From Enterococcus florum (lineage in GTDB: Bacteria > Bacillota > Bacilli > Lactobacillales > Enterococcaceae): 64,000 bases of DNA. A program made the position numbers and the translations under genes. Below, piece by piece: positions 83 to 32,971 of the stretch (within the stretch, counting starts at the first letter, position 1; each line of letters starts with the position of its first letter). The stretch lies in NCBI RefSeq assembly GCF_004309355.1, contig NZ_BJCC01000034.1:1-64000 (forward strand), read 5' to 3'. The notes under the pieces were generated by a model. It ran no database searches. It was not told the origin of the DNA and was given only the letters and a program-made list of their open reading frames with translations.

Positions 83-955
83 TTAATCGACATAGTCTGT
101 TTCTGTTTTGTTCAACCAAGCATAGCCCAAGCCCATTACCAACCCTCCACCGATAAAGTTTCCGATCAATGTGAAGAACAGATTATGAAGAATATTGGCT
201 GAAGTCATTTCAGCGATCGTCCCATGGGAAGCAAAATAAGCGAGTGAAAATGCTGGGAAGTTCGCGATAACGTGCTCATAGCCCAAGAAAGCAAAGATAA
301 AGATGATAAAAATGATAGCCATCACTTTCGCAGCGTCATCTTTCATGCGCATGCTGATCAGCACTGCAATATTTACTACGATATTGGCAAACATGCCTTC
401 TACTAAAATCTGCAGCGTTGATTTCGTAAGCTTGCTTGCGATCCCAGTAAACATATAATTTCCCGGCTCAAGATGTCCAAAAGGTGCTGTTAATGAAAGG
501 AGGTATCCGCAGATTACTCCGCCAATCAAATTAAAGAATATACAAGTGAATAATAATTTAACACCGAATGAAAGAGAGACCTTTTTCCGATATACGCCTA
601 CTGTCATGTACAACATATTCGAAGTTCCCAGCTCTGCATTCATAAAAAGAATCATGACCAGTGACCAGCTGAACATAAATGCATAGGCCATTTTTTCCAG
701 TCCAGGAATCGCCTCTTGGGTGCGAATCGCAATATAAAACGCGATCGCTGTACCTAATGATAAAAATAAGCAGGCAAATACAGAACGAACTGCGTAGCGG
801 GCAAAACTGCTTTCGATCAATTGTTTCTTTTTCATGATCGATTTATCCAATTGACTCATCAATGGAAAATACTTTCCTTGCACGTCTTCTTTTTCCATCT
901 TTTGGGAAGCCTCCGTTACCTCTTCTGTTATTTCCATCGCCAAATTCGACTTCAT
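83..955 (-). CDS. Formate/nitrite transporter (FNT) family channel
   Basis: A 290-residue polytopic membrane protein of the formate/nitrite channel family, expected to move formate, nitrite or a related small monovalent anion across the cytoplasmic membrane. A hydrophilic N-terminal segment of about 55 residues precedes six hydrophobic segments; the stretch with ELGTSNMLYM and FFNLIGGVICGY resembles the conserved pore region of the family. The frame is open further upstream to a TTG, but the ATG at 955 has an AGGAAGG ribosome binding site, and a consensus promoter lies inside the longer version, so the shorter start is preferred. It appears monocistronic. The transported ion cannot be told from sequence. 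Confidence 0.88.
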   Translation of the reverse strand: MKSNLAMEITEEVTEASQKMEKEDVQGKYFPLMSQLDKSIMKKKQLIESSFARYAVRSVFACLFLSLGTAIAFYIAIRTQEAIPGLEKMAYAFMFSWSLVMILFMNAELGTSNMLYMTVGVYRKKVSLSFGVKLLFTCIFFNLIGGVICGYLLSLTAPFGHLEPGNYMFTGIASKLTKSTLQILVEGMFANIVVNIAVLISMRMKDDAAKVMAIIFIIFIFAFLGYEHVIANFPAFSLAYFASHGTIAEMTSANILHNLFFTLIGNFIGGGLVMGLGYAWLNKTETDYVD

Positions 956-24266: not shown

Positions 24267-25412
24267 TTATTGATCGATTTTCTCTAATGCCTGCGCTAAG
24301 TCGCCAAGCAAATCTTCTGTCTCTTCAATCCCTACGGATAAGCGAAGCAGCCCTTCTGTGACGCCCTGCTTCTCCCGTTCTTCCTTTGGTACACACGCGT
24401 GACTCATGGTGACTGGATAAGAAAGAATCGATTCTACACCACCTAAACTGACTGCAGCAATGGGCAGCTTCACTGCATCCGCAAACGAGTAAACAGCCTG
24501 TTGATTGGCCAACTCAAATGACAGAACAGCGCCACCATTTTTCGCTTGCTTTTGATGGATCGCGTATCCAGGATGACTCGGCAGCCCGGGATAATACACG
24601 TTTCTCACCTGTGGTTGCTTTGCCAAGAAATGACTGATTGCTTCAGCGCTCTGACAACTTTGCTGCATTCGCAGACCTAATGTCTTCATTCCTCGCATAA
24701 TTAGCCAACAATCCTCCACCCCTAACATGCTGCCGAGCACTTTCTGCTGCAACTTGATTTGCTCCGCCCATTCTGGATCATCAGTCACGACTAAACCTGC
24801 CACCACATCACTATGACCGTTGATAAATTTAGTAGCACTGTGGATCACAAGATCGACTCCTAGCTCCAACGGTTTTTGCAGCAGCGGCGTCATAAACGTA
24901 TTGTCGATAATCGTGGTCAGCTGGCTTTCCTTAGCGATCGACACGACCGAAGTTATATCGGTGATCTGCAGCAGAGGATTGGAGGGGGTTTCTAAATACA
25001 GTGCCTTTGTATTTGGTCTAATTGCCTGCCGCCATTGGTCAAGGTCGGTCTCATCGACAAAGCTTACCTTGATACCAAAACGCTGCAGCACCTCGTTGAC
25101 CAGCTGAAAAGTCCCGCCATAAATACTTTTGCCCATCACAAGATGGTCTCCCCGGCTGAAGCTTAGCAATACAGCCGATATCGCCCCCATGCCAGAAGAA
25201 AAAGCAGATGCAAAGCGCCCGCCCTCAATCGAAGCGATCCCTTCTTCCAATGCTCGCCTTGTCGGATTGCCAAAGCGAGAATAGGTGTAGGGCTGATCCT
25301 GCCTGATCGATGTTTGCTTAAAGGTTGAACATTGATAGATAGGAATCGATGATGCCCCAGTTTGTTCATCGAAAACCTCGTATCCATGAATCAGTCTTGT
25401 GTTGTCTCTCAT
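24267..25412 (-). CDS. Cystathionine gamma-synthase/beta-lyase family PLP enzyme
   Basis: A 381-residue PLP enzyme of the Cys/Met trans-sulfuration family. The PLP lysine is in the motif SATKFINGHSDVVAG near residue 195, and YSRFGNPTRRALE near residue 45 carries the phosphate-binding Tyr and Arg. These enzymes interconvert homoserine esters, cystathionine, homocysteine and cysteine; beta-lyase, gamma-lyase and gamma-synthase cannot be separated by eye. The Ser- and flavin-related neighbours fit sulfur amino-acid metabolism. A good GGGGAGGGAC site precedes the ATG. Confidence 0.9.
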   Translation of the reverse strand: MRDNTRLIHGYEVFDEQTGASSIPIYQCSTFKQTSIRQDQPYTYSRFGNPTRRALEEGIASIEGGRFASAFSSGMGAISAVLLSFSRGDHLVMGKSIYGGTFQLVNEVLQRFGIKVSFVDETDLDQWRQAIRPNTKALYLETPSNPLLQITDITSVVSIAKESQLTTIIDNTFMTPLLQKPLELGVDLVIHSATKFINGHSDVVAGLVVTDDPEWAEQIKLQQKVLGSMLGVEDCWLIMRGMKTLGLRMQQSCQSAEAISHFLAKQPQVRNVYYPGLPSHPGYAIHQKQAKNGGAVLSFELANQQAVYSFADAVKLPIAAVSLGGVESILSYPVTMSHACVPKEEREKQGVTEGLLRLSVGIEETEDLLGDLAQALEKIDQ

Positions 25413-25530
25413 TTAAGTCCCTCCCCTTCAGTCAATCTGATTCTACCATTAAAAGAAACCGTTTTCTTCCATTATGGAGAGGTTTTTAGCAGATTTTTAG
25501 TCGACTATTACTTAAAGGCTCACTGCATCA

Positions 25531-25569
25531 AAAAAGCCTTGAGCTCCATCCGCGGGCGTCTCAAGGCTT
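25531..25569 (-). terminator. Terminator of the serC-serA-DUF1015 operon
   Basis: AAGCCTTGAG and CTCAAGGCTT form a perfect 10 bp stem with T residues on the minus strand. Confidence 0.85.
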
Positions 25570-25574
25570 CGGTG

Positions 25575-26801
25575 TTATGTTGTTTCTAAATCATGTAAAA
25601 ACAAGCCGCTTAATAGTTTTGGTTCGAACCAAGTCGATTTTGGCGGCATGATTTTGCCCGCATCGGCAACAGATAATAAGTCAGACATCGCAGTTGGGTA
25701 CATTGAAAATGCCAGTGTCCATTCCCCGGAATCCACTAATTTTTCCAACTCGGCTGTTCCTCGAATGCCTCCGACGAAATCGATTCGCTTGTCTGTCCGA
25801 ATATCCTTGATCCCAAATAGCTGATCGAAAACGTAGCGTTGCAGTAACGCCACATCCAACCGTTCCACAGGGTCATCAGAAACACTTTCGGGCTTGATCG
25901 TCAAGGTGTACCAAGCATTCCCATCGTAAAGCTGAACCTGGCCTGCTGCTGCAGGGGTTTTGACTCCGCTTTTTTCGACTTGATAGTGCTTGGCTAAGCC
26001 CTCCCAAAAATTCGCTGGCGGCGCAATCTTCAACACTCGGTTGTATTCCCAGATCGCCAACTCCTCATCCGGAAAAATAATGGAAAGAAAGCGACTGCTT
26101 TCCGGACTTTCCTGTCCGTTTTTGCGTTTTTCCAGACCCACTTTGACCGCTGATTCGGTCCGATGGTGGCCATCGGCGATATATAAGGCATCCACTTGAT
26201 CAAACGCTTGCTGCAGCTGCTGGATCACGGCTGGATCATCCATTACCCATACCTTGTGGGTCACGTCATGGAAGCTGGTAAATTGGTAAACGGCTTTATG
26301 GGTAGCTTTCCAGTCATCCATCAATCGCTGAATCAAGTCATTCGAACGATAACTCAAAAAAATTGGACTGGTATTGGCATCACAGGCCTTGATATGATTG
26401 ATTCGGTCTATTTCTTTTTCTGGGCGAGTAAACTCATGCTTCTTGATCTTCCCCGCTGTATAGTCGTCAATCGAGGTACATGCGGTCAATCCGGTCTGAC
26501 TGCGGCCGTTCATGGTCAATTCATACAAGTAATAACATTCTGTTGTTTCTTTTTTCAACCAGCCCTGCTGCAGAAAATCCGCTAGGTGATCAGCTGCCTT
26601 TTGATAGACCTGCGGATCATATGGGGAAATATCCTCTGGAAGATCGATTTCTGCTTTGTCGATGTGGAAAAAACTGTAGGGATTATCGGCAGCCAGTTCC
26701 TTCGCTTCCTTAGAGTTCACTACATCGTAAGGCAATGCTGCGACTTGTTCTGCCTTCTCCTCTGCTGGACGAATCGCCTTAAAGGGGCGTACATAGACCA
26801 T
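25575..26801 (-). CDS. DUF1015 family protein
   Basis: A 408-residue protein of the DUF1015 family, recognisable from the N-terminal VRPFKAIRP and AALPYDVV and the central IADGHHRTESA motif. Members are often encoded with serine biosynthesis genes, as here: its ATG overlaps the serA stop codon by one base (TAATG). The HHR motif has been likened to catalytic sites, but the activity is not established to my knowledge. The context suggests a role in serine, phosphoserine or hydroxypyruvate metabolism. Confidence 0.85.
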   Translation of the reverse strand: MVYVRPFKAIRPAEEKAEQVAALPYDVVNSKEAKELAADNPYSFFHIDKAEIDLPEDISPYDPQVYQKAADHLADFLQQGWLKKETTECYYLYELTMNGRSQTGLTACTSIDDYTAGKIKKHEFTRPEKEIDRINHIKACDANTSPIFLSYRSNDLIQRLMDDWKATHKAVYQFTSFHDVTHKVWVMDDPAVIQQLQQAFDQVDALYIADGHHRTESAVKVGLEKRKNGQESPESSRFLSIIFPDEELAIWEYNRVLKIAPPANFWEGLAKHYQVEKSGVKTPAAAGQVQLYDGNAWYTLTIKPESVSDDPVERLDVALLQRYVFDQLFGIKDIRTDKRIDFVGGIRGTAELEKLVDSGEWTLAFSMYPTAMSDLLSVADAGKIMPPKSTWFEPKLLSGLFLHDLETT

Positions 26802-27985
26802 TAATAGCCCACCTCCGTATTTTTGATCGTGCGAACCCGAATGACTCCCTCATTCTGAGCCAATTTGTCAGCGATTGCCTGAATTTTTTCAGGGTCAGTC
26901 TCGTCGACATCCACTAGGGTATAGGCATGATCATCCCTCCCTCGATTGACCATGTTCGCGATATTCACATCCAATGAAGCGATATCTGAAGCAATCTGTC
27001 CTAACATATTGGGTACGTTTTTATTGATCACTGTGATTCGGTAAGGTGCATCGAAGGCCATTTCAACCGTTGGAAAATTGACAGAACGTTTGATGATTCC
27101 GGTTTCTAAGAAACGCTTCAATCCGCGAGCTGCCATCTTGGCACAATTAATCTCAGCCTCTTCCGTTGAAGCGCCTAAATGTGGAAGAACCGTAATCTTG
27201 TCGACGTTTAGCAGTTTTTCTTCAGCAAAATCCGTTGTATATCCGCCAATTTTGTCATTAATAACTGCCTCTAATATAGCATCTGTGTCAACGATCTCTC
27301 CACGAGCAAAGTTGAAGAGCTTTGCAGTCGATTTCATTTGAGCAAGCTCTTCGGTGCTGATCAAATGATGTGTTGCATCAGTCAACGGTACATGGATCGT
27401 GATAAAGTCACAATTGGTCAACACTTCTTTGATATCCATCGCCCGTTTTACACGGCGAGAAATGCTCCAAGCGGTGTCAACTGAAACATAAGGATCGTAG
27501 CCAGTGACCTCCATGCCTAGACGATAGGCATCGTTGGCAATCATTGCTCCGATCGCCCCAAGTCCGATCACGCCTAGTTTTTTGCCTTCCAGCTCAGTCC
27601 CGGCAAATTGCTTTTTGTTTGCTTCTGCCTGCTCTTCGACATCCTCGCCGGTGAGTGTTTGAACCCATTGGATCCCTTGCACCATCGGACGAACAGAAAG
27701 CAGCAGACTTGCTAATACCAGCTCTTTGACAGCATTGGCATTGGCACCTGGTGTGTTGAACACCACGATCCCTTTTTCTGTACACTCACTAACGGGAATA
27801 TTGTTGGTTCCCGCGCCGGCTCTGGCAACAGCTAAAACAGAATCAGGAAATGCGTAATCGTGCAGTTTTTGACTACGTAAAATGATCCCATCAGGTGTTT
27901 CGCTTTCATTGATTTTATAGTTTTCTTTATCGAAACGCGTCATTCCCTCTGGAGCGATCGCATTGAATGTTTTGATATGAAACAT
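26801..27985 (-). CDS. serA: D-3-phosphoglycerate dehydrogenase
   Basis: A 394-residue NAD-dependent dehydrogenase that oxidises 3-phosphoglycerate to 3-phosphohydroxypyruvate, the first step of serine synthesis. The Rossmann motif GLGAIGAMIAND lies near residue 145, the catalytic His is in PHLGASTEEAE near residue 280, and an ACT domain (about 320-394) starts with YRITVINKNVPNMLGQI. It is the short type lacking the intervening domain. It immediately follows serC without a gap. Feedback control by serine through the ACT domain is likely. Confidence 0.95.
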   Translation of the reverse strand: MFHIKTFNAIAPEGMTRFDKENYKINESETPDGIILRSQKLHDYAFPDSVLAVARAGAGTNNIPVSECTEKGIVVFNTPGANANAVKELVLASLLLSVRPMVQGIQWVQTLTGEDVEEQAEANKKQFAGTELEGKKLGVIGLGAIGAMIANDAYRLGMEVTGYDPYVSVDTAWSISRRVKRAMDIKEVLTNCDFITIHVPLTDATHHLISTEELAQMKSTAKLFNFARGEIVDTDAILEAVINDKIGGYTTDFAEEKLLNVDKITVLPHLGASTEEAEINCAKMAARGLKRFLETGIIKRSVNFPTVEMAFDAPYRITVINKNVPNMLGQIASDIASLDVNIANMVNRGRDDHAYTLVDVDETDPEKIQAIADKLAQNEGVIRVRTIKNTEVGY

Positions 27986-29065
27986 TTATTTTCCCCCATT
28001 GTCCTGTTCAAATTTTTTCATGAACGCGATGAGTGCATCCACGCCTTCAATCGGAAAGGCATTGTATAAGCTTGCCCGCATGCCGCCAACGGATCGGTGC
28101 CCTTTCAGGTTCTCGAACCCGGCAGCCAAAGCCTCTGCATTAAACTGCTTGTCCAGCTCTGCATCGCCAGTGATGAACGGTACATTGGTCAAAGAACGGC
28201 TGTCTTTTTCGACCGGACTTTGGAACAATCCAGATTCTTCAATTGCTTGATACAAACGACCCGCTTTTACTCGATCTTGTTCGGTGATGCCGGCAACGCC
28301 GCCTTGTTCCTTGACCCACTCAAACACCAGCTTCGCGATATAAATGGCAAAGGTTGGAGGTGTATTGTACAACGAATGATTGTCGGCCTGAAGCTTGTAA
28401 TCCAGCATCGGCGCAGCGATCTCAGTTTGGCCCAGCAAGTCTTCTCGCACGATGACGACTGTCAACCCGGCAGGACCAATATTTTTTTGCGCCCCTGCAT
28501 AGATCAATCCAAAATCCTCAACCTTGTAATCATTTGCTAAAATATTCGAAGACATATCAGCGACGATCGGTACAGCACCGCAATCTGGAATCTTTGCAAA
28601 AGCCGTTCCTTCAATTGTATTGTTTGTTGTGATATGGACATACGCTGCCTCTTGATCGATCGTTTCTGGAAGCTCTGGAATATACGTGAATTGTTTGTCT
28701 TCGCTTGAGGCGATCACTTCAACCTCAACACCAAGAGCCTTCGCCCCGCTAATCGCTTTTTTCGACCATGAGCCGGTATTTACATACAATGCTTTCTTCC
28801 CTTGAGCCAAATTCATCGGCACCATCGTGAATTGCAGGCTTGCTCCGCCTTGCAGGAAAAGCACCTGATAATGATCTGGAATCGCCATGAGCTCTCTTAA
28901 CAGCTGTTCAGCGTCTTGAATGATCGCTTCAAACCAGGAGGAACGATGACTCAACTCCATCACCGACATGCCGCTGCCCTTATAGTCCAGCAGCTCGGAC
29001 TGTGCTTTCTCCAACACCGCTTTAGGTAGTACGGCTGGTCCAGCAGAAAAATTGTAAATTGTCAT
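27986..29065 (-). CDS. serC: Phosphoserine aminotransferase
   Basis: A 359-residue PLP aminotransferase converting 3-phosphohydroxypyruvate and glutamate to phosphoserine and 2-oxoglutarate. The N-terminal [10 protein letters not shown] and the PLP lysine motif [11 protein letters not shown] are diagnostic. ATG 29065 has AAGGAG nine nt upstream; the frame is open six codons further to a GTG that overlaps that site. First gene of serC-serA-DUF1015. No serB-type phosphatase gene is in the window. Confidence 0.96.
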
Positions 29066-29098
29066 ATTTGTTCGCTCCTTCACTAAGATGTGATGACA

Positions 29099-29279: not shown

Positions 29280-29783
29280 TTATGAGGCCACGTGTTGGAT
29301 AATTTCAGCTGCAATTTCTTTCGGGCAGCGGTTCGATGTATCTACAGTCAAACGAGCCAATTTTTCGTACATTTTTTCGCGTGCGTAAAAAAGATTTTTG
29401 ATTTCGCTGTCTTTCTTATGGGTCGCGTTTGGCCGAATGTTTTCTTTGTCTTTGCGAATGCGATCGATCAAGATTTCTGGGTCAGCCTTCAAGTAAACCA
29501 CCATCTTATCAGACAACACCTTCTGGTTTTCCTCCTGCATAATGACTCCGCCGCCAGTAGCGATCACGGATTTTTGGTGAACGGCTTCTTTCAGCAAGGC
29601 TGTTTCATGCTGGCGGAAAGAGGCTTCTCCGTATTTTTCAAAGTATTCGCTGATGGAGCCGATCCGTTCTACCAGCACATCATCCATGTCAACGCGTTGG
29701 CAATCTAAGATTTCTGCTACCTGTTTACTGATCGTGGTTTTTCCGGCACCCATAAAGCCGATTAAAATAATTGATTTCATCAT
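29280..29783 (-). CDS. aroK: Shikimate kinase
   Basis: A 167-residue P-loop kinase that phosphorylates shikimate with ATP, the fifth step to chorismate. Walker A is GFMGAGKTT, the shikimate-binding region includes DMDD and FRQHE, and ATGGGVIM is the conserved glycine motif. TAGGAG precedes ATG-ATG. It is separated from aroB by its own promoter and attenuator leader, so its expression is governed separately from aroF-aroB but by the same signal. Confidence 0.95.
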   Translation of the reverse strand: MMKSIILIGFMGAGKTTISKQVAEILDCQRVDMDDVLVERIGSISEYFEKYGEASFRQHETALLKEAVHQKSVIATGGGVIMQEENQKVLSDKMVVYLKADPEILIDRIRKDKENIRPNATHKKDSEIKNLFYAREKMYEKLARLTVDTSNRCPKEIAAEIIQHVAS

Positions 29784-29852: not shown

Positions 29853-29942
29853 TCATCCAGCCCCGTCATCCTTTCGCCAACGCGTATGGATCCCCTTCTT
29901 TTTATGGTCCACTCGCTTCGCTTGTATACGATCTTGTGTCAC
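29853..29942 (-). CDS. Candidate 29-residue ORF between the attenuator and aroK
   Basis: GTG start with a near-perfect AAGGAGGG six nt upstream, directly after terminator T2 of the leader. The peptide is very basic (begins MTQDRIQAKRVDHKKKG). A similar arrangement, with an unrelated peptide, follows the aroF leader. It may be a translated spacer that keeps ribosomes on the read-through transcript, a regulator, or chance. No family recognised. Confidence 0.35.
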   Translation of the reverse strand: MTQDRIQAKRVDHKKKGIHTRWRKDDGAG

Positions 29943-29967
29943 GTGATTCCCTCCTTGGATACAAAAA

Positions 29968-30000
29968 GACTCATCATAGATTGAAAATCTACAATGAGCC
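29968..30000 (-). terminator. Terminator T2 of the aroK leader (segments 6 and 7)
   Basis: On the minus strand GGCTCATTGTAGAT (segment 6) pairs with ATCTATGATGAGTC (segment 7), followed by TTTTT. Segment 6 can instead pair with segment 5 of the upstream terminator. Confidence 0.8.
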
Positions 30001-30025
30001 TTCGCCTAAAAAGGAAAAATAAAAA

Positions 30026-30052
30026 GCCACTATAGATTTTCATCTATGTGGC
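30026..30052 (-). terminator. Terminator T1 of the aroK leader (segments 4 and 5)
   Basis: On the minus strand GCCACATAGAT (segment 4) pairs with ATCTATAGTGGC (segment 5) with a GAAA-type loop, followed by TTTTTATTTTT. Segment 4 can instead pair with segment 3 at 30071-30088. Confidence 0.85.
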
Positions 30053-30128
30053 AGAAGTCAAAAGAAATTTCTCTAGCCATCATAGATACAAACGTGTCGT
30101 CTGTACCCATGATTGCATGAATACAAAC

Positions 30129-30185
30129 CTATCTAAAATAGCTAAAGTAAAAATTATTCAGTTGTGCAGTCATTTTATTCATCAT
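30129..30185 (-). CDS. Aromatic-rich leader peptide of aroK
   Basis: An 18-codon ORF with the sequence MMNKMTAQLNNFYFSYFR and GGAG eight nt upstream of the first ATG. Five of the last seven residues are Phe or Tyr. The codons for FSYFR lie in pairing segment 1 of the attenuator. It matches the leader upstream of aroF in length and at 9 of 18 aligned positions. Acts in cis as a sensor of charged Phe- and Tyr-tRNA (inference); the peptide itself probably has no function. Confidence 0.75.
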   Translation of the reverse strand: MMNKMTAQLNNFYFSYFR

Positions 30186-30225: not shown

Positions 30226-30254
30226 ATTCTAGAGATTGTCTTTTGATTTGTCAA
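30226..30254 (-). promoter_or_regulatory. Promoter of the aroK leader
   Basis: Minus strand TTGACA (30249-30254) and TAGAAT (30226-30231) with a 17 bp spacer, about 35 nt before the leader start codon. The same pair of boxes precedes the aroF leader. Confidence 0.85.
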
Positions 30255-30376: not shown

Positions 30377-31440
30377 TTATTCTAGCGTGACATACTCTCG
30401 CAATTCATTCAAAGGGACAGACATGATCCGGCTTTTTCCGATGTCTTCAACAATCACGATTCTGATCTTGTCTCCTCGAACCTTTTTATCATGGGTCATC
30501 GCTTGAAAAATCTTTTCTTCGTCCCACGGTTGATACCGTGCAGGCAAACCAAAGGCCTCGACCATCTCAATCAGCTCTTGGGTCAGGTTCCTTCGGCTTA
30601 GTGCTTTTTTTCAGTCACCCCGGTCATTTGGACCATGCCTAAGGCCACTGCCTCGCCATGGCTGATCATTTCATAGTTTTGACTCGCCTCTAGCCCATGA
30701 CCGATCGTGTGTCCGAAATTCAGCAGCAAACGCTGTCCCTGATCGAATTCATCTTCCTCGACCAATGCTTTTTTGACCTTTAAAGCCCTCAAAATAATAT
30801 TCTCACTGTATCCTAGAAGAATCTCCAGACGATTGGTTTTTTGCAGCTCTTGCCACAGATCGGCATCACGGATCATCGCACATTTAATGACTTCAGCCAT
30901 GCCTTCAGATAGACGTTTTTCTGGCAAAGATTCTAAGGTTAAAGGATCGATCAATACTCCGTCCGGCTGAGCGAAGGTACCTATCAAATTTTTGGCCTTT
31001 TCACAATTGACGCCGGTCTTGCCGCCGATGCTGGAATCCACCTGTGCCAAAAGCGAAGTAGGAATTTGAATAAAGGACAATCCCCGCATGTAGGTCGATG
31101 CCACAAAGCCGGTTAAATCTCCAATCACACCACCGCCTAACCCAATGAGTGAATCACTGCGGGAGAAGCCTTCATCAGTCAAAAAATCATAGATCTCTTC
31201 GGCCGTCCCCAGGGATTTGCTTTTTTCGCCGGCAGGTACGACATGAGAAACAACTTCAAATCCGTGCCATTCAAGGTATTGAGTGACCGTGCGACCGTAA
31301 ATCGGGAACACATTTTCATCACTGATCAAAGCGATCTTGCGTTTGCTCCAAATCTCAGAGACCCAGGCACCGACCGTTTCCAGTGCCCCCTTCTTCACGA
31401 TGATGTCGTAACTTTTATTGGCTAAATGAATGGTTAACAT
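30377..31440 (-). pseudogene. aroB: 3-dehydroquinate synthase, frameshifted at A-AAA-AAG
   Basis: Encodes the NAD-dependent enzyme converting DAHP to 3-dehydroquinate. The first frame gives 280 residues with the expected GGGVIGDLTGFVAS, SIGGKTGVNC and NFGHTIGHGLE motifs, then stops at 30598. The missing C-terminus (ending in LREYVTLE) continues in the -1 frame to 30377. The break is at a run of seven A (30605-30611) that reads GAA-AAA-AAG-CAC-TAA. One extra A, or -1 slippage on A-AAA-AAG, restores about 354 residues, the normal length. The ATG overlaps the end of aroF by 7 nt. It may be a true null, a sequencing error, or programmed frameshifting. Confidence 0.85.
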
Positions 31441-32474
31441 ACGATTTCCCCCTTGGTTAAGCTTTTGATCTTTTGCATCGCTTCGACAAGTACTTCCACT
31501 TCTTTCATCATTTGCAGGTAATTCTTTTCATTCAATGACTGATCGCCATCCGACCAAGCATTCAACGGATCAGGATGGATCTCGACGATCATGCCGTCGG
31601 CCCCGCTGGCAACCCCTGCACGTGCCATCGGCGACACCAGATCCCAAATACCAGTTCCATGACTTGGGTCAACGATCACTGGGAAATGACTCAGCTTCTT
31701 CATCAATGGGACTGCACTCAGATCCAACGTGTTGCGCGTCGCTCGTTCGTAGGTACGAATGCCGCGTTCGATGAATAGGATATTAGAATTTTGCTGAACC
31801 GCGATGTATTCCGCTGCGTTTAGCCATTCCTCGATCGTGCCAGAGATCCCGCGTTTGAGGCCAATTGGTTTTCCTGTTTTTCCAACAGCCTCCAACAAAC
31901 GGAAATTTTGCATGTTGCGGGCACCGATCTGAATAATGTCGGCGTATTCCGCAACCACATCAATGTGGGCTTCATCCATCACTTCAGTAATGACTTTTAG
32001 CTCGTAAGCGTCTGCTGCTGCCCGCATGATCTTCAATCCCGTCTCCCCTAATCCTTGGAAAGCGTAGGGAGAAGTTCTAGGTTTGTAGGCCCCGCCTCGT
32101 AAAATTTTGGCTCCGCCGGCGTGCGCCATTCTAGCAGCTTCCATGATTTGTTCTTCTCCCTCTACTGAACAAGGACCGGCCATCGTAACGAAGCTGCCAT
32201 CGCCGATTTTAACACCGTCAACATCTACAACCGTGTCTTGCGGATGAAATTCTCTTGAAGTCAGCTTGTAGCTGTTTGAGATTGGGACGACTTTGTCGAC
32301 GATCGGGTACTGCTGGAAAGAAACGGAACGTAAAATCTCAGGATCTCCCAAGAGCCCTAACACAATCCGATTCTCGCCATGGTTGATCTGAACGTCCAAG
32401 CCTGCACGCTTGATTCTATTGATAATGGGAGACAATTCCTCTGTACTTACTTCTGGTTTCATAATAACGATCAT
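31434..32474 (-). CDS. aroF: 3-deoxy-7-phosphoheptulonate (DAHP) synthase
   Basis: A 346-residue type I-beta DAHP synthase that joins phosphoenolpyruvate and erythrose 4-phosphate, the first step of aromatic synthesis. An N-terminal ACT-like regulatory domain (about 1-70) precedes the barrel, with [27 protein letters not shown] and VDPSHGTG visible. AGGAGG lies eight nt before the ATG. First enzyme gene after the attenuator leader, overlapping aroB. Control is expected at two levels: transcript attenuation and possible ligand binding by the ACT-like domain. Confidence 0.95.
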
Positions 32475-32535: not shown

Positions 32536-32652
32536 CTATTCTGACGTCTCAGATGCTTGCACTGCTTGGCTGCCTCCAAAAGATCTGGAGGTCGTGCTGC
32601 GTATAACCCTGTGATAAAACGCGCTGTCTTTTCCCGAATCCGTGTTTTCCAT
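32536..32652 (-). CDS. Candidate small ORF between the attenuator and aroF
   Basis: ATG start with GGAGG seven nt upstream, giving 38 residues beginning MENTDSGKDS. An alternative frame from GTG 32657 gives 42 residues beginning MLWKTRIREK and ending at 32529, but its spacing to GGAGG is only 2 nt. It occupies the same place as the 29-residue ORF before aroK. Which frame, if either, is translated is not clear. Confidence 0.3.
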   Translation of the reverse strand: MENTDSGKDSAFYHRVIRSTTSRSFGGSQAVQASETSE

Positions 32653-32673: not shown

Positions 32674-32708
32674 AGGCTCATCATAGATGAAAAATCTACA
32701 ATGAGCCT
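32674..32708 (-). terminator. Terminator T2 of the aroF leader (segments 6 and 7)
   Basis: Minus strand GGCTCATTGTAGAT (segment 6) pairs with ATCTATGATGAGCC (segment 7), followed by TTTTG. Segment 6 can instead pair with segment 5 of T1. Confidence 0.8.
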
Positions 32709-32731
32709 ACCTCTGCAAAGGAAAATTAAAA

Positions 32732-32758
32732 GCCACTATAGATTTTCATCTATGTGGC
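32732..32758 (-). terminator. Terminator T1 of the aroF leader (segments 4 and 5)
   Basis: Minus strand GCCACATAGAT (segment 4) pairs with ATCTATAGTGGC (segment 5), followed by TTTTAATTTT. Segment 4 can instead pair with segment 3 at 32777-32794 with one bulged A. Confidence 0.85.
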
Positions 32759-32837
32759 AAAAGTCATCTTAAAACTCTTTAGCCATCATAGATACAAACT
32801 GCGTGTCGTTTGCATCCATGATTTCATGAACACAAAC

Positions 32838-32894
32838 CTATCTAAAATAGCTAAAGTAATAGTTATTCAGTTGTGAAGTTGTCCTTGTATTCAT
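32838..32894 (-). CDS. Aromatic-rich leader peptide of aroF-aroB
   Basis: An 18-codon ORF encoding MNTRTTSQLNNYYFSYFR, with GGAG eight nt upstream of the ATG. The last seven residues contain Tyr-Tyr-Phe, then Tyr-Phe. It aligns without gaps to the aroK leader peptide, keeping QLNN and YFSYFR. A leader of this sort reports Phe/Tyr tRNA charging by ribosome stalling, as known for enterobacterial pheA and pheST; its use here is inferred. Confidence 0.78.
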   Translation of the reverse strand: MNTRTTSQLNNYYFSYFR

Positions 32895-32942
32895 GGTCTC
32901 CACTCCAAACGTTTTTGTTTTTCTTTGTTTAAGATGGTGTTT

Positions 32943-32971
32943 ATTCTAGAGACTTGTTCATGGAATGTCAA
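32943..32971 (-). promoter_or_regulatory. Promoter of the aroF-aroB leader
   Basis: Minus strand TTGACA (32966-32971) and TAGAAT (32943-32948) with a 17 bp spacer, about 42 nt before the leader start. Confidence 0.85.

Follow-up and report, generated by a model that had tools for sequence, protein, structure and literature searches.

The aroF and aroK genes of Enterococcus florum are very probably each controlled by a ribosome-mediated transcription attenuator that responds to the charging of tRNA-Tyr and tRNA-Phe. Two complete copies of this element lie on the minus strand of the window, that is, the whole analysed stretch of 64,000 nucleotides (contig NZ_BJCC01000034.1, positions 1 to 64,000). 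At the sequence level, the leader ORF, its codons, the gene context and the pairing of the RNA strands are conserved in relatives. Leader-peptide attenuation of amino acid genes is a textbook case in enteric bacteria. In Firmicutes, it is rarely reported and T-boxes are common, according to the accessible text of PMC2965389 and PMC9413887.

Layout of the two leaders in the window

The aroF element extends on the minus strand from 32971 to 32674, at the position given in a preliminary description of this DNA. This description had claimed a consensus promoter, an 18-codon leader ORF and complementary segments arranged in a chain, two terminators included. All of these are present: the promoter agrees with the consensus at 11/12 positions, the ORF has its GGAG and ATG, and the pairs 1:3, 3:4, 4:5, 5:6 and 6:7 were found. 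Promoter-like sites in the aroF leader region are not commoner than in shuffles (7 vs 6.6). The features of this region are:

32943..32971, minus strand: promoter TTGACA-17-TAGAAT of the aroF leader (11/12 consensus positions)
32903-32906, minus strand: Shine-Dalgarno GGAG of the aroF leader (sequence reading)
32838..32894, minus strand: leader ORF MNTRTTSQLNNYYFSYFR and stop, 18 codons, ATG at 32894, stop ending at 32838 (frame and Shine-Dalgarno kept in relatives)
32839..32856, minus strand: segment 1, end of the leader ORF, partner segment 3 (pairing energy, covariation)
32825..32837, minus strand: segment 2a, partner 2b (pairing, covariation)
32808..32820, minus strand: segment 2b, partner 2a or, alternatively, segment 3 (pairing, covariation)
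32777..32799, minus strand: segment 3, switch strand, partners 1, 2b or 4 (core search, pairing, covariation)
32748-32758, minus strand: segment 4 (pairing)
32732-32743, minus strand: segment 5 (pairing)
32732..32758, minus strand: hairpin 4:5, predicted first terminator, then TTTTAATTTT (hairpin scan, fold)
32694-32708, minus strand: segment 6 (pairing)
32674-32688, minus strand: segment 7 (pairing)
32674..32708, minus strand: hairpin 6:7, predicted second terminator (hairpin scan, fold)
32687..32854, minus strand: match to Rfam RF02863 sRNA_2410 (76.7 bits, cut-off 61)
31434..32474, minus strand: aroF (DAHP synthase), presumed regulated gene (TIGR01361, 403.1 bits)
30598..31440, minus strand: 5' part of aroB, frame ending early (ORF list and profile match)

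In the aroF copy, duplex 1:3 has 17 bp (-19.0 kcal/mol), 3:4 has 12 bp (-15.1 kcal/mol), 4:5 has 11 bp, 6:7 has 15 bp and 5:6, by inspection, about 10 bp. The second terminator is followed by a short U-run (TTTTGTAT). Segment 2, absent from the earlier list of segments, forms the hairpin 2a:2b, and its 3' arm, 2b, is complementary to segment 3 over 13 bp (-16.4 kcal/mol). The whole leader folds with z = -8.2, and none of 200 dinucleotide shuffles was equally stable.

A core of 19 bases from segment 3 occurs exactly twice in the window, where 0.02 occurrences are expected, and no further match with up to 3 mismatches was found there. The other occurrence belongs to a second complete copy upstream of aroK (30254-29966, minus strand), which carries its own promoter and leader and folds with z = -8.3:

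30226..30254, minus strand: promoter TTGACA-17-TAGAAT of the aroK leader (consensus match)
30129..30185, minus strand: second leader ORF MMNKMTAQLNNFYFSYFR and stop (sequence reading)
30006..30145, minus strand: second RF02863 match (71.1 bits, cut-off 61)
30026..30052, minus strand: aroK copy, predicted first terminator 4:5 (hairpin scan)
29966..30002, minus strand: aroK copy, predicted second terminator 6:7 (hairpin scan)
29280..29783, minus strand: aroK (shikimate kinase), presumed regulated gene (closest profile that of shikimate kinase, scoring under the model cut-off)

Our own model R1, built from 48 sequences, recovers both copies and also, at low scores, the strands antisense to them (24.5 and 16.4 bits).

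We propose that RNA polymerase would transcribe the leader ORF with a ribosome behind it. Under starvation, this ribosome would stall at the YYF or YF codons and mask segment 1; hairpin 2a:2b would form and the free segment 3 would pair with segment 4. Segment 5 would in turn be freed to pair with segment 6, so that neither 4:5 nor 6:7 would form and aroF-aroB, or aroK through its own copy, would be transcribed. At sufficiency, the ribosome at the stop codon would cover 2a, and the freed 2b would trap segment 3, acting as a second lock; once the ribosome leaves, segment 1 could trap it likewise. With segment 3 trapped, segment 4 would pair with 5 to give the first terminator and segment 6 with 7 to give the second.

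Several further features of this locus were recorded. The aroB gene is split (30377-31440, minus strand): a 280-aa ORF stops after an A-run and a 62-aa ORF resumes in another frame, which is either a real frameshift or a sequencing error. Short ORFs with a Shine-Dalgarno-like sequence lie between the second terminator and aroF (38 codons, 32536-32652, minus strand) and before aroK (29 codons, GTG start, 29853-29942, minus strand). The idea that the gaps before aroF and aroK hold a remnant of aroE was dropped, since their alignments mostly did not exceed the best of 100 shuffles, with a largest excess of 3 points; an intact aroE is located elsewhere in the genome. Downstream of aroK (24267-29083, minus strand) lie look-alikes, judged by eye, of serC, serA, a DUF1015-type protein and a PLP-dependent sulfur amino acid enzyme.

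Leader peptide, pairings and target genes in relatives

RF02863 matches the E. florum genome six times, five of them above the cut-off, before aroF, aroK, aroC-tyrA (the last two names assigned by eye) and three TrpX-like ABC substrate-binding proteins; model R1 adds a seventh copy, of tryptophan type. RF02863 matches were found in 101/105 genomes of the family, in 222/395 sampled genomes of the order at E <= 0.01 (99/395 above the cut-off), in 27/299 genomes of the class and in 0/14 control genomes. R1 matched 35/398 genomes of a class sample and 4/398 of a phylum sample; three of these four belong to the order, including that of E. florum, and one (G1133) lies outside the class. A match at L161 (Zixiibacteriota) was discarded as a chance match inside a gene. 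A scan with the 19-base core gave at least 113 stretches, 12 of which were inspected; among the matches listed (80 records), Enterococcus predominates, with Vagococcus, Tetragenococcus, Carnobacterium, others and some Clostridia. As claimed previously, there is no T-box motif in the window (no RF00230 match), and the 21 T-box matches of the genome (10 above the cut-off) all lie on other contigs. The element family therefore coexists with T-boxes in E. florum.

From the matches listed, 119 RF02863 loci were chosen for spread, first 99 and later 20 more distant ones. The first 99 precede 71 ABC substrate-binding protein genes, 21 aroE, 3 aroF and one each of aroK, aroC, pheA and another amino-acid ABC gene; representatives of the first four classes and pheA were named by profile match, and aroC and the other ABC protein by eye. 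Targets of the distant loci, named by eye, include DAHP synthase, pheA (leader end FFFSDFR), transketolase, aminotransferase and NSS-type transporters. In genome G548, the element precedes transketolase-like and aminotransferase-like genes (L107 and L144), with the leaders RYYYFGWFS and FYYYFGFFR; such loci would mean an aromatic regulon reaching into precursor supply. At L103, a SAM riboswitch (RF00162, 85.2 bits, 174-276, minus strand) lies near an element of Trp/Tyr type.

In all 119 loci, the leader frame starts with an ATG and runs uninterrupted into the conserved end, and in 105 of them it carries a strong Shine-Dalgarno. The two alternative frames are open in only 7 and 8 loci, and with a Shine-Dalgarno in 0 and 1; 69/2049 random positions have an open frame from ATG. 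The 14 loci that miss a strong Shine-Dalgarno include 8 of the 11 members of family f3, probably streptococci. Two codons that lie outside the RF02863 model, starting 7 and 4 bases ahead of its match, are aromatic in 97/119 and 117/119 loci, and the two codons preceding these control codons in just 5 and 1. No excess of changes at the third codon position was found in the leader (343/399/415 changes by position), so the coding evidence rests on frame, start, Shine-Dalgarno and control codons. FSYFR before the stop is nearly invariant and the remaining peptide varies; C-termini such as FSDFR, YGYYR, FGWFS and FNNHFR also occur. Locus L056, before pheA, has a mixed Phe/Tyr leader (VYFSYFR), indicating that control codons and gene product are not always matched one-to-one. 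Collectively, the conserved frame, Shine-Dalgarno, control codons and target genes bear out the earlier proposal of Phe/Tyr leader-peptide attenuation.

Pairing was examined in 116 loci, after exclusion of L089, L115 and L116, where segment 3 or a terminator is unclear. In 27 of these loci, less than 72% alike, the own duplex was better than swapped ones in 26 loci for 1:3, 23 for 2b:3, 20 for 3:4 and 24 for 5:6, bearing in mind that the RNA models used to find the loci already include 1:3, 2a:2b and 4:5 and thus favour those pairs. Control pairs gave 12 (1:4), 12 (1:2b), 6 (2a:4), 9 (3:6), 15 (4:7) and 17 (1:5) of the 27 loci. Since 5:6 is absent both from the pairs of the Rfam model and from the choice of segments, it constitutes the cleanest pairing result.

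Alignment A1 comprises 48 of the 116 loci, near-duplicates and long or distant 4:5 hairpins having been removed. Double changes were observed at 29/41 pairs of the terminating fold (1:3, 2a:2b and 4:5, the pairs built into the search models) and at 10/13 pairs of the alternative 2b:3, with none of 500 shuffles as high in either case. Segment 1 had been presented as the lock on segment 3; the pair 1:3 is indeed conserved, but it is not the sole lock, as 2b:3 is conserved and covarying too. Covariation of 3:4 and 5:6 had been suggested as a check of the alternative fold. It is weak for 3:4 (4/12 pairs; 109/500 shuffles as high), a pair kept in 86.5% of A1 cells vs 26-55% when slid, and 5:6 gains its support from the 24/27 loci in which the own duplex is better. 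By eye, conservation in A1 falls mostly on the strands that pair with one another and on the ORF end, with variable loops and linkers, and no conserved unpaired core is apparent.

Tryptophan type, known families and alternative readings

The seventh copy in the genome has the leader MNQHYLSNQLNSWQNWRR, with Trp codons (WQNWRR), and lies before a TrpX protein; the Trp version is mostly found before trpX-type transporters. This copy, L140 (G000:C12:150170, before trpX), and the Phe/Tyr-type copy L006 (153163, before aroC-tyrA) stand in tandem about 3 kb apart, and the same spacing recurs between the matches found in relatives, G015 and G056 among them. The WQNWRR pattern occurs in 27/295 genomes of the order; the reversed control pattern gave nothing among the matches listed. 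L140 scores 62.1 on the Rfam model RF04312 (cut-off 59), the trpB motif, and the aro copies of the window score 37.3, below this cut-off. Of 14 control genomes, 4 match RF04312 at E <= 0.1 and 1 (Lactococcus lactis) at 1e-5, none above the cut-off.

As a guard against circularity, 30 loci (24 above the cut-off) were taken by RF04312 search irrespective of their leader, the model lying downstream of the ORF; five of them (L305, L315, L316, L318 and L321) had also been found by the WQNWRR pattern. A leader ORF with ATG and Shine-Dalgarno is present in 28/30 loci, and all 28 leaders have Trp within their last 12 residues (two in 23, one in 5), against a background of 6 Trp in 9875 residues of downstream proteins. 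In the remaining two loci, TGG codons stand in the same place by eye. The proteins after the RF04312 loci are nearest to TrpX in 25/30 cases, to the Phe/Tyr branch in none and to neither in 5, two of which look TrpB-like by eye. Conversely, the proteins behind Phe/Tyr leaders, 71 among the first 99 loci, are all nearest to their own branch, one of them being the reference itself. The NCBIfam TrpX model (cut-off 390) gives 413-480 bits for Trp-type proteins (5/5 tested) vs 304-335 for Phe/Tyr-type ones (4/4 tested). At L302, an RF04312 match precedes a look-alike of a group II intron reverse transcriptase, possibly inserted between leader and target gene.

Segment 3 changes along with segment 1 between the two types. 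When strands were crossed between the types, with 26 of the 27 Phe/Tyr loci included, duplex 1:3 of the Trp type reached -17.2 kcal/mol with its own partner vs -10.4 kcal/mol with that of the Phe/Tyr type (own better in 10/10). Within the Trp type, own was no better than swapped (1:3 in 3/10, 2b:3 in 4/10), and 5:6 is weak (-6.8 kcal/mol, own better in 7/10).

On balance, we favour the view that RF02863, RF04312 and the aromatic 'riboswitches' of S. agalactiae form one superfamily of leader-peptide attenuators across Firmicutes, and Fusobacteria by the published range of RF04312. In this superfamily, the locks 1:3 and 2b:3 on one strand would separate a ribosome starved at aromatic codons from one that has come to the stop codon, and the biosynthetic and Trp versions would drive two serial terminators by a chain of strand exchanges. 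The E. coli trp and pheA and Salmonella his attenuators likewise combine a leader peptide, control codons and mutually exclusive terminator and antiterminator, his with a chain of alternating stems. They belong to another phylum and differ in sequence, whereas the element described here has two locks on a single strand and two serial terminators. A PCE signal is said to have been reported by Panina in 2003 before DAHP synthase and shikimate kinase genes of Streptococcus and Lactococcus; it may or may not be the element of the window, and was not found in the open-access literature searched.

The element itself is not new, contrary to the preliminary description. It corresponds to RF02863, sRNA_2410 of E. 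faecium (PMC5593968), with both window copies above its cut-off; this family is annotated as an sRNA, and its model starts inside the leader end and stops within 6:7. The accessible part of the source paper gives neither leader peptide nor function, and reports two transcripts on a Northern blot (PMC5593968). In S. agalactiae, the leaders of gbs2033 and gbs1262 show premature termination by RNA-seq, with short and long transcripts from one start; they precede paralogous ABC operons and are conserved in Lactobacillales, and the gbs2033 type also precedes E. faecium aroFBC-tyrA (PMC4448216, in its accessible parts). They were proposed in 2015 as riboswitches, a putative aromatic family, and we liken them to the window element by their published description alone; one of the two may be the Trp type. 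The main text of PMC4448216 contains none of the words peptide, ORF, tyrosine or phenylalanine.

For the trpB motif, Narunsky 2024 favoured a strong riboswitch candidate and left a classic attenuator open, in the accessible text (PMC11109978). The P1 of RF04312 is 2b:3 here and its second hairpin is the terminator 4:5, while the leader codons, 1:3 and 2a:2b fall outside the model. Accessible text of other reports describes leader-peptide attenuation in or near this phylum for S. aureus ilv-leu (PMC5794164) and a predicted one, uORFC-13-1, before Acholeplasma aroF, the same target gene (PMC8632094), each in a single lineage. The homologous transporter operon trpXYZ of S. suis responds to tRNA charging through a Trp T-box that has no leader peptide (PMC9382623, in part). 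Within the open-access literature searched, to which subscription papers and supplements did not belong, RF02863 was not found as a term and the element is nowhere called a leader-peptide attenuator; the leader peptide, the unification of the families and the second lock are new as far as this search extends.

Attenuation by the ribosome has to be weighed against other readings of these leaders. A metabolite riboswitch, in which the RNA itself would bind an aromatic amino acid or one of its precursors and the ORF would be incidental, agrees with the strong conservation and covariation of the RNA and with the published proposals for the S. agalactiae relatives (PMC4448216) and the trpB motif (PMC11109978), so far as their accessible text goes. 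However, the conserved bases are, by eye, mostly pairing strands and the ORF end, the leader ORF has its Shine-Dalgarno in 105/119 and 28/30 loci, and the change of target from Phe/Tyr to Trp is accompanied by changed control codons and a changed segment 3; we regard a riboswitch as very unlikely. Slightly less likely still is nascent-peptide arrest of the TnaC kind, with the C-terminal FSYFR stalling the ribosome on free amino acid. The near invariance of FSYFR before the stop would suit such an arrest, but its bases are those of segment 1, held by pairing with segment 3; the rest of the peptide is unconserved, other ends exist (FSDFR, YGYYR, FGWFS, FNNHFR), and stalling by amino acid excess would have the wrong sign for biosynthesis. 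The RF02863 annotation suggests instead a trans-acting small RNA whose active product is the terminated leader, as it was detected in E. faecium as an sRNA (PMC5593968, accessible part). This we consider the least probable of all, as the loci, with a leader ORF of their own, stand before genes that are mostly aromatic and run in line with them; the terminated product may nevertheless have a trans role.

If ribosome-mediated attenuation is correct, an annotated sRNA would be explained and an orphan riboswitch candidate dissolved, the signal being charged tRNA read by the ribosome, with no bound ligand. Furthermore, the leader codons would predict the substrate: where a TrpX-like transporter has a YYFSYFR leader, its expected substrate would be Phe/Tyr and not Trp.

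Ribosome state and the two terminators

Partition functions were computed at the decision point, with the transcript ending in the 4:5 loop and the ribosome footprint kept unpaired, its edge being placed, by assumption, 12 bases downstream of the first nucleotide of the A-site codon. Over the 27 loci, the mean predicted probability of 3:4 is 0.15 without ribosome, 0.58, 0.67 and 0.49 with the ribosome stalled at the first, middle and last aromatic codon, and 0.29 at the stop codon; it rises on stalling in 19, 22 and 20 loci for the three positions. With the ribosome at the stop codon, 2b:3 increases in 27/27 loci. These differences suggest that the RNA could distinguish a ribosome held up by starvation from one completing the leader. 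In the Trp type, the mean probability of 3:4 is 0.41 without ribosome, 0.79 and 0.80 at the Trp codons and 0.34 at the stop codon.

Folding gives mixed support in the case of the window's aroF copy. Stalling had been expected to release 3:4, but in the aroF copy this pair is already predicted at 0.94 without ribosome (0.96, 0.96 and 0.69 stalled) and is lost just at the stop codon (0.31). The aroC copy likewise starts at 0.67 without ribosome and shows no appreciable rise on stalling; in L001, the pair peaks at just 0.39.

Equilibrium folding of the full-length leaders was rejected as a proof of the switch, for on average it shows none: the terminators are kept in every ribosome state, with mean probabilities of 0.80-0.90 for 6:7 and 0.84-0.90 for 4:5. 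Since terminators win at equilibrium on average, the decisions must fall during transcription and the switch would be kinetic in most copies. The classical attenuators are kinetic switches. The full-length aroF copy is an exception: stalling lowers 6:7 from 0.97 to 0.12, 0.15 and 0.35, and with the ribosome at the stop codon it is again 0.97. Hairpin 4:5 does not respond to stalling and keeps a probability of 0.86-0.99. Of the two terminators proposed to be switched off in one chain, this fold thus predicts a response for the second and not for the first.

One fixed scan of 163 loci scored a hairpin followed by a U-run for both hairpins. Both were found in only 5/86 Phe/Tyr loci before substrate-binding proteins, in 30/50 Phe/Tyr loci before other genes and in 26/27 Trp loci, counts in which the fixed limits are perhaps unsuited to L103 and L146-L148, and L274, L293 and L299 duplicate L140, L141 and L143. 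Serial terminators therefore seem to be a recurrent variant linked to gene class; the two-terminator cascade described earlier is present in the aroF copy, but it is a feature of a subset of the family. In most transporter copies, hairpin 4:5 looks like a relay alone. In the aroF copy, both terminators may act jointly. That only one hairpin terminates in vivo, the other being a relay strand as in the transporter copies, is possible but rather unlikely. The scarcity of two terminators in the Phe/Tyr transporter copies and the unresponsive 4:5 of the full-length aroF fold speak for such an arrangement; their frequency in the other Phe/Tyr loci and in the Trp loci, together with the near-identical tandem terminators seen by eye in six Clostridia relatives, speaks against it.

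The Clostridia relatives L167, L179, L180, L185, L223 and L225 precede a BrnQ-type-looking transporter, with leaders such as KYYFSYYS and FYFYWLL, and this transporter branch may carry aromatic amino acids.
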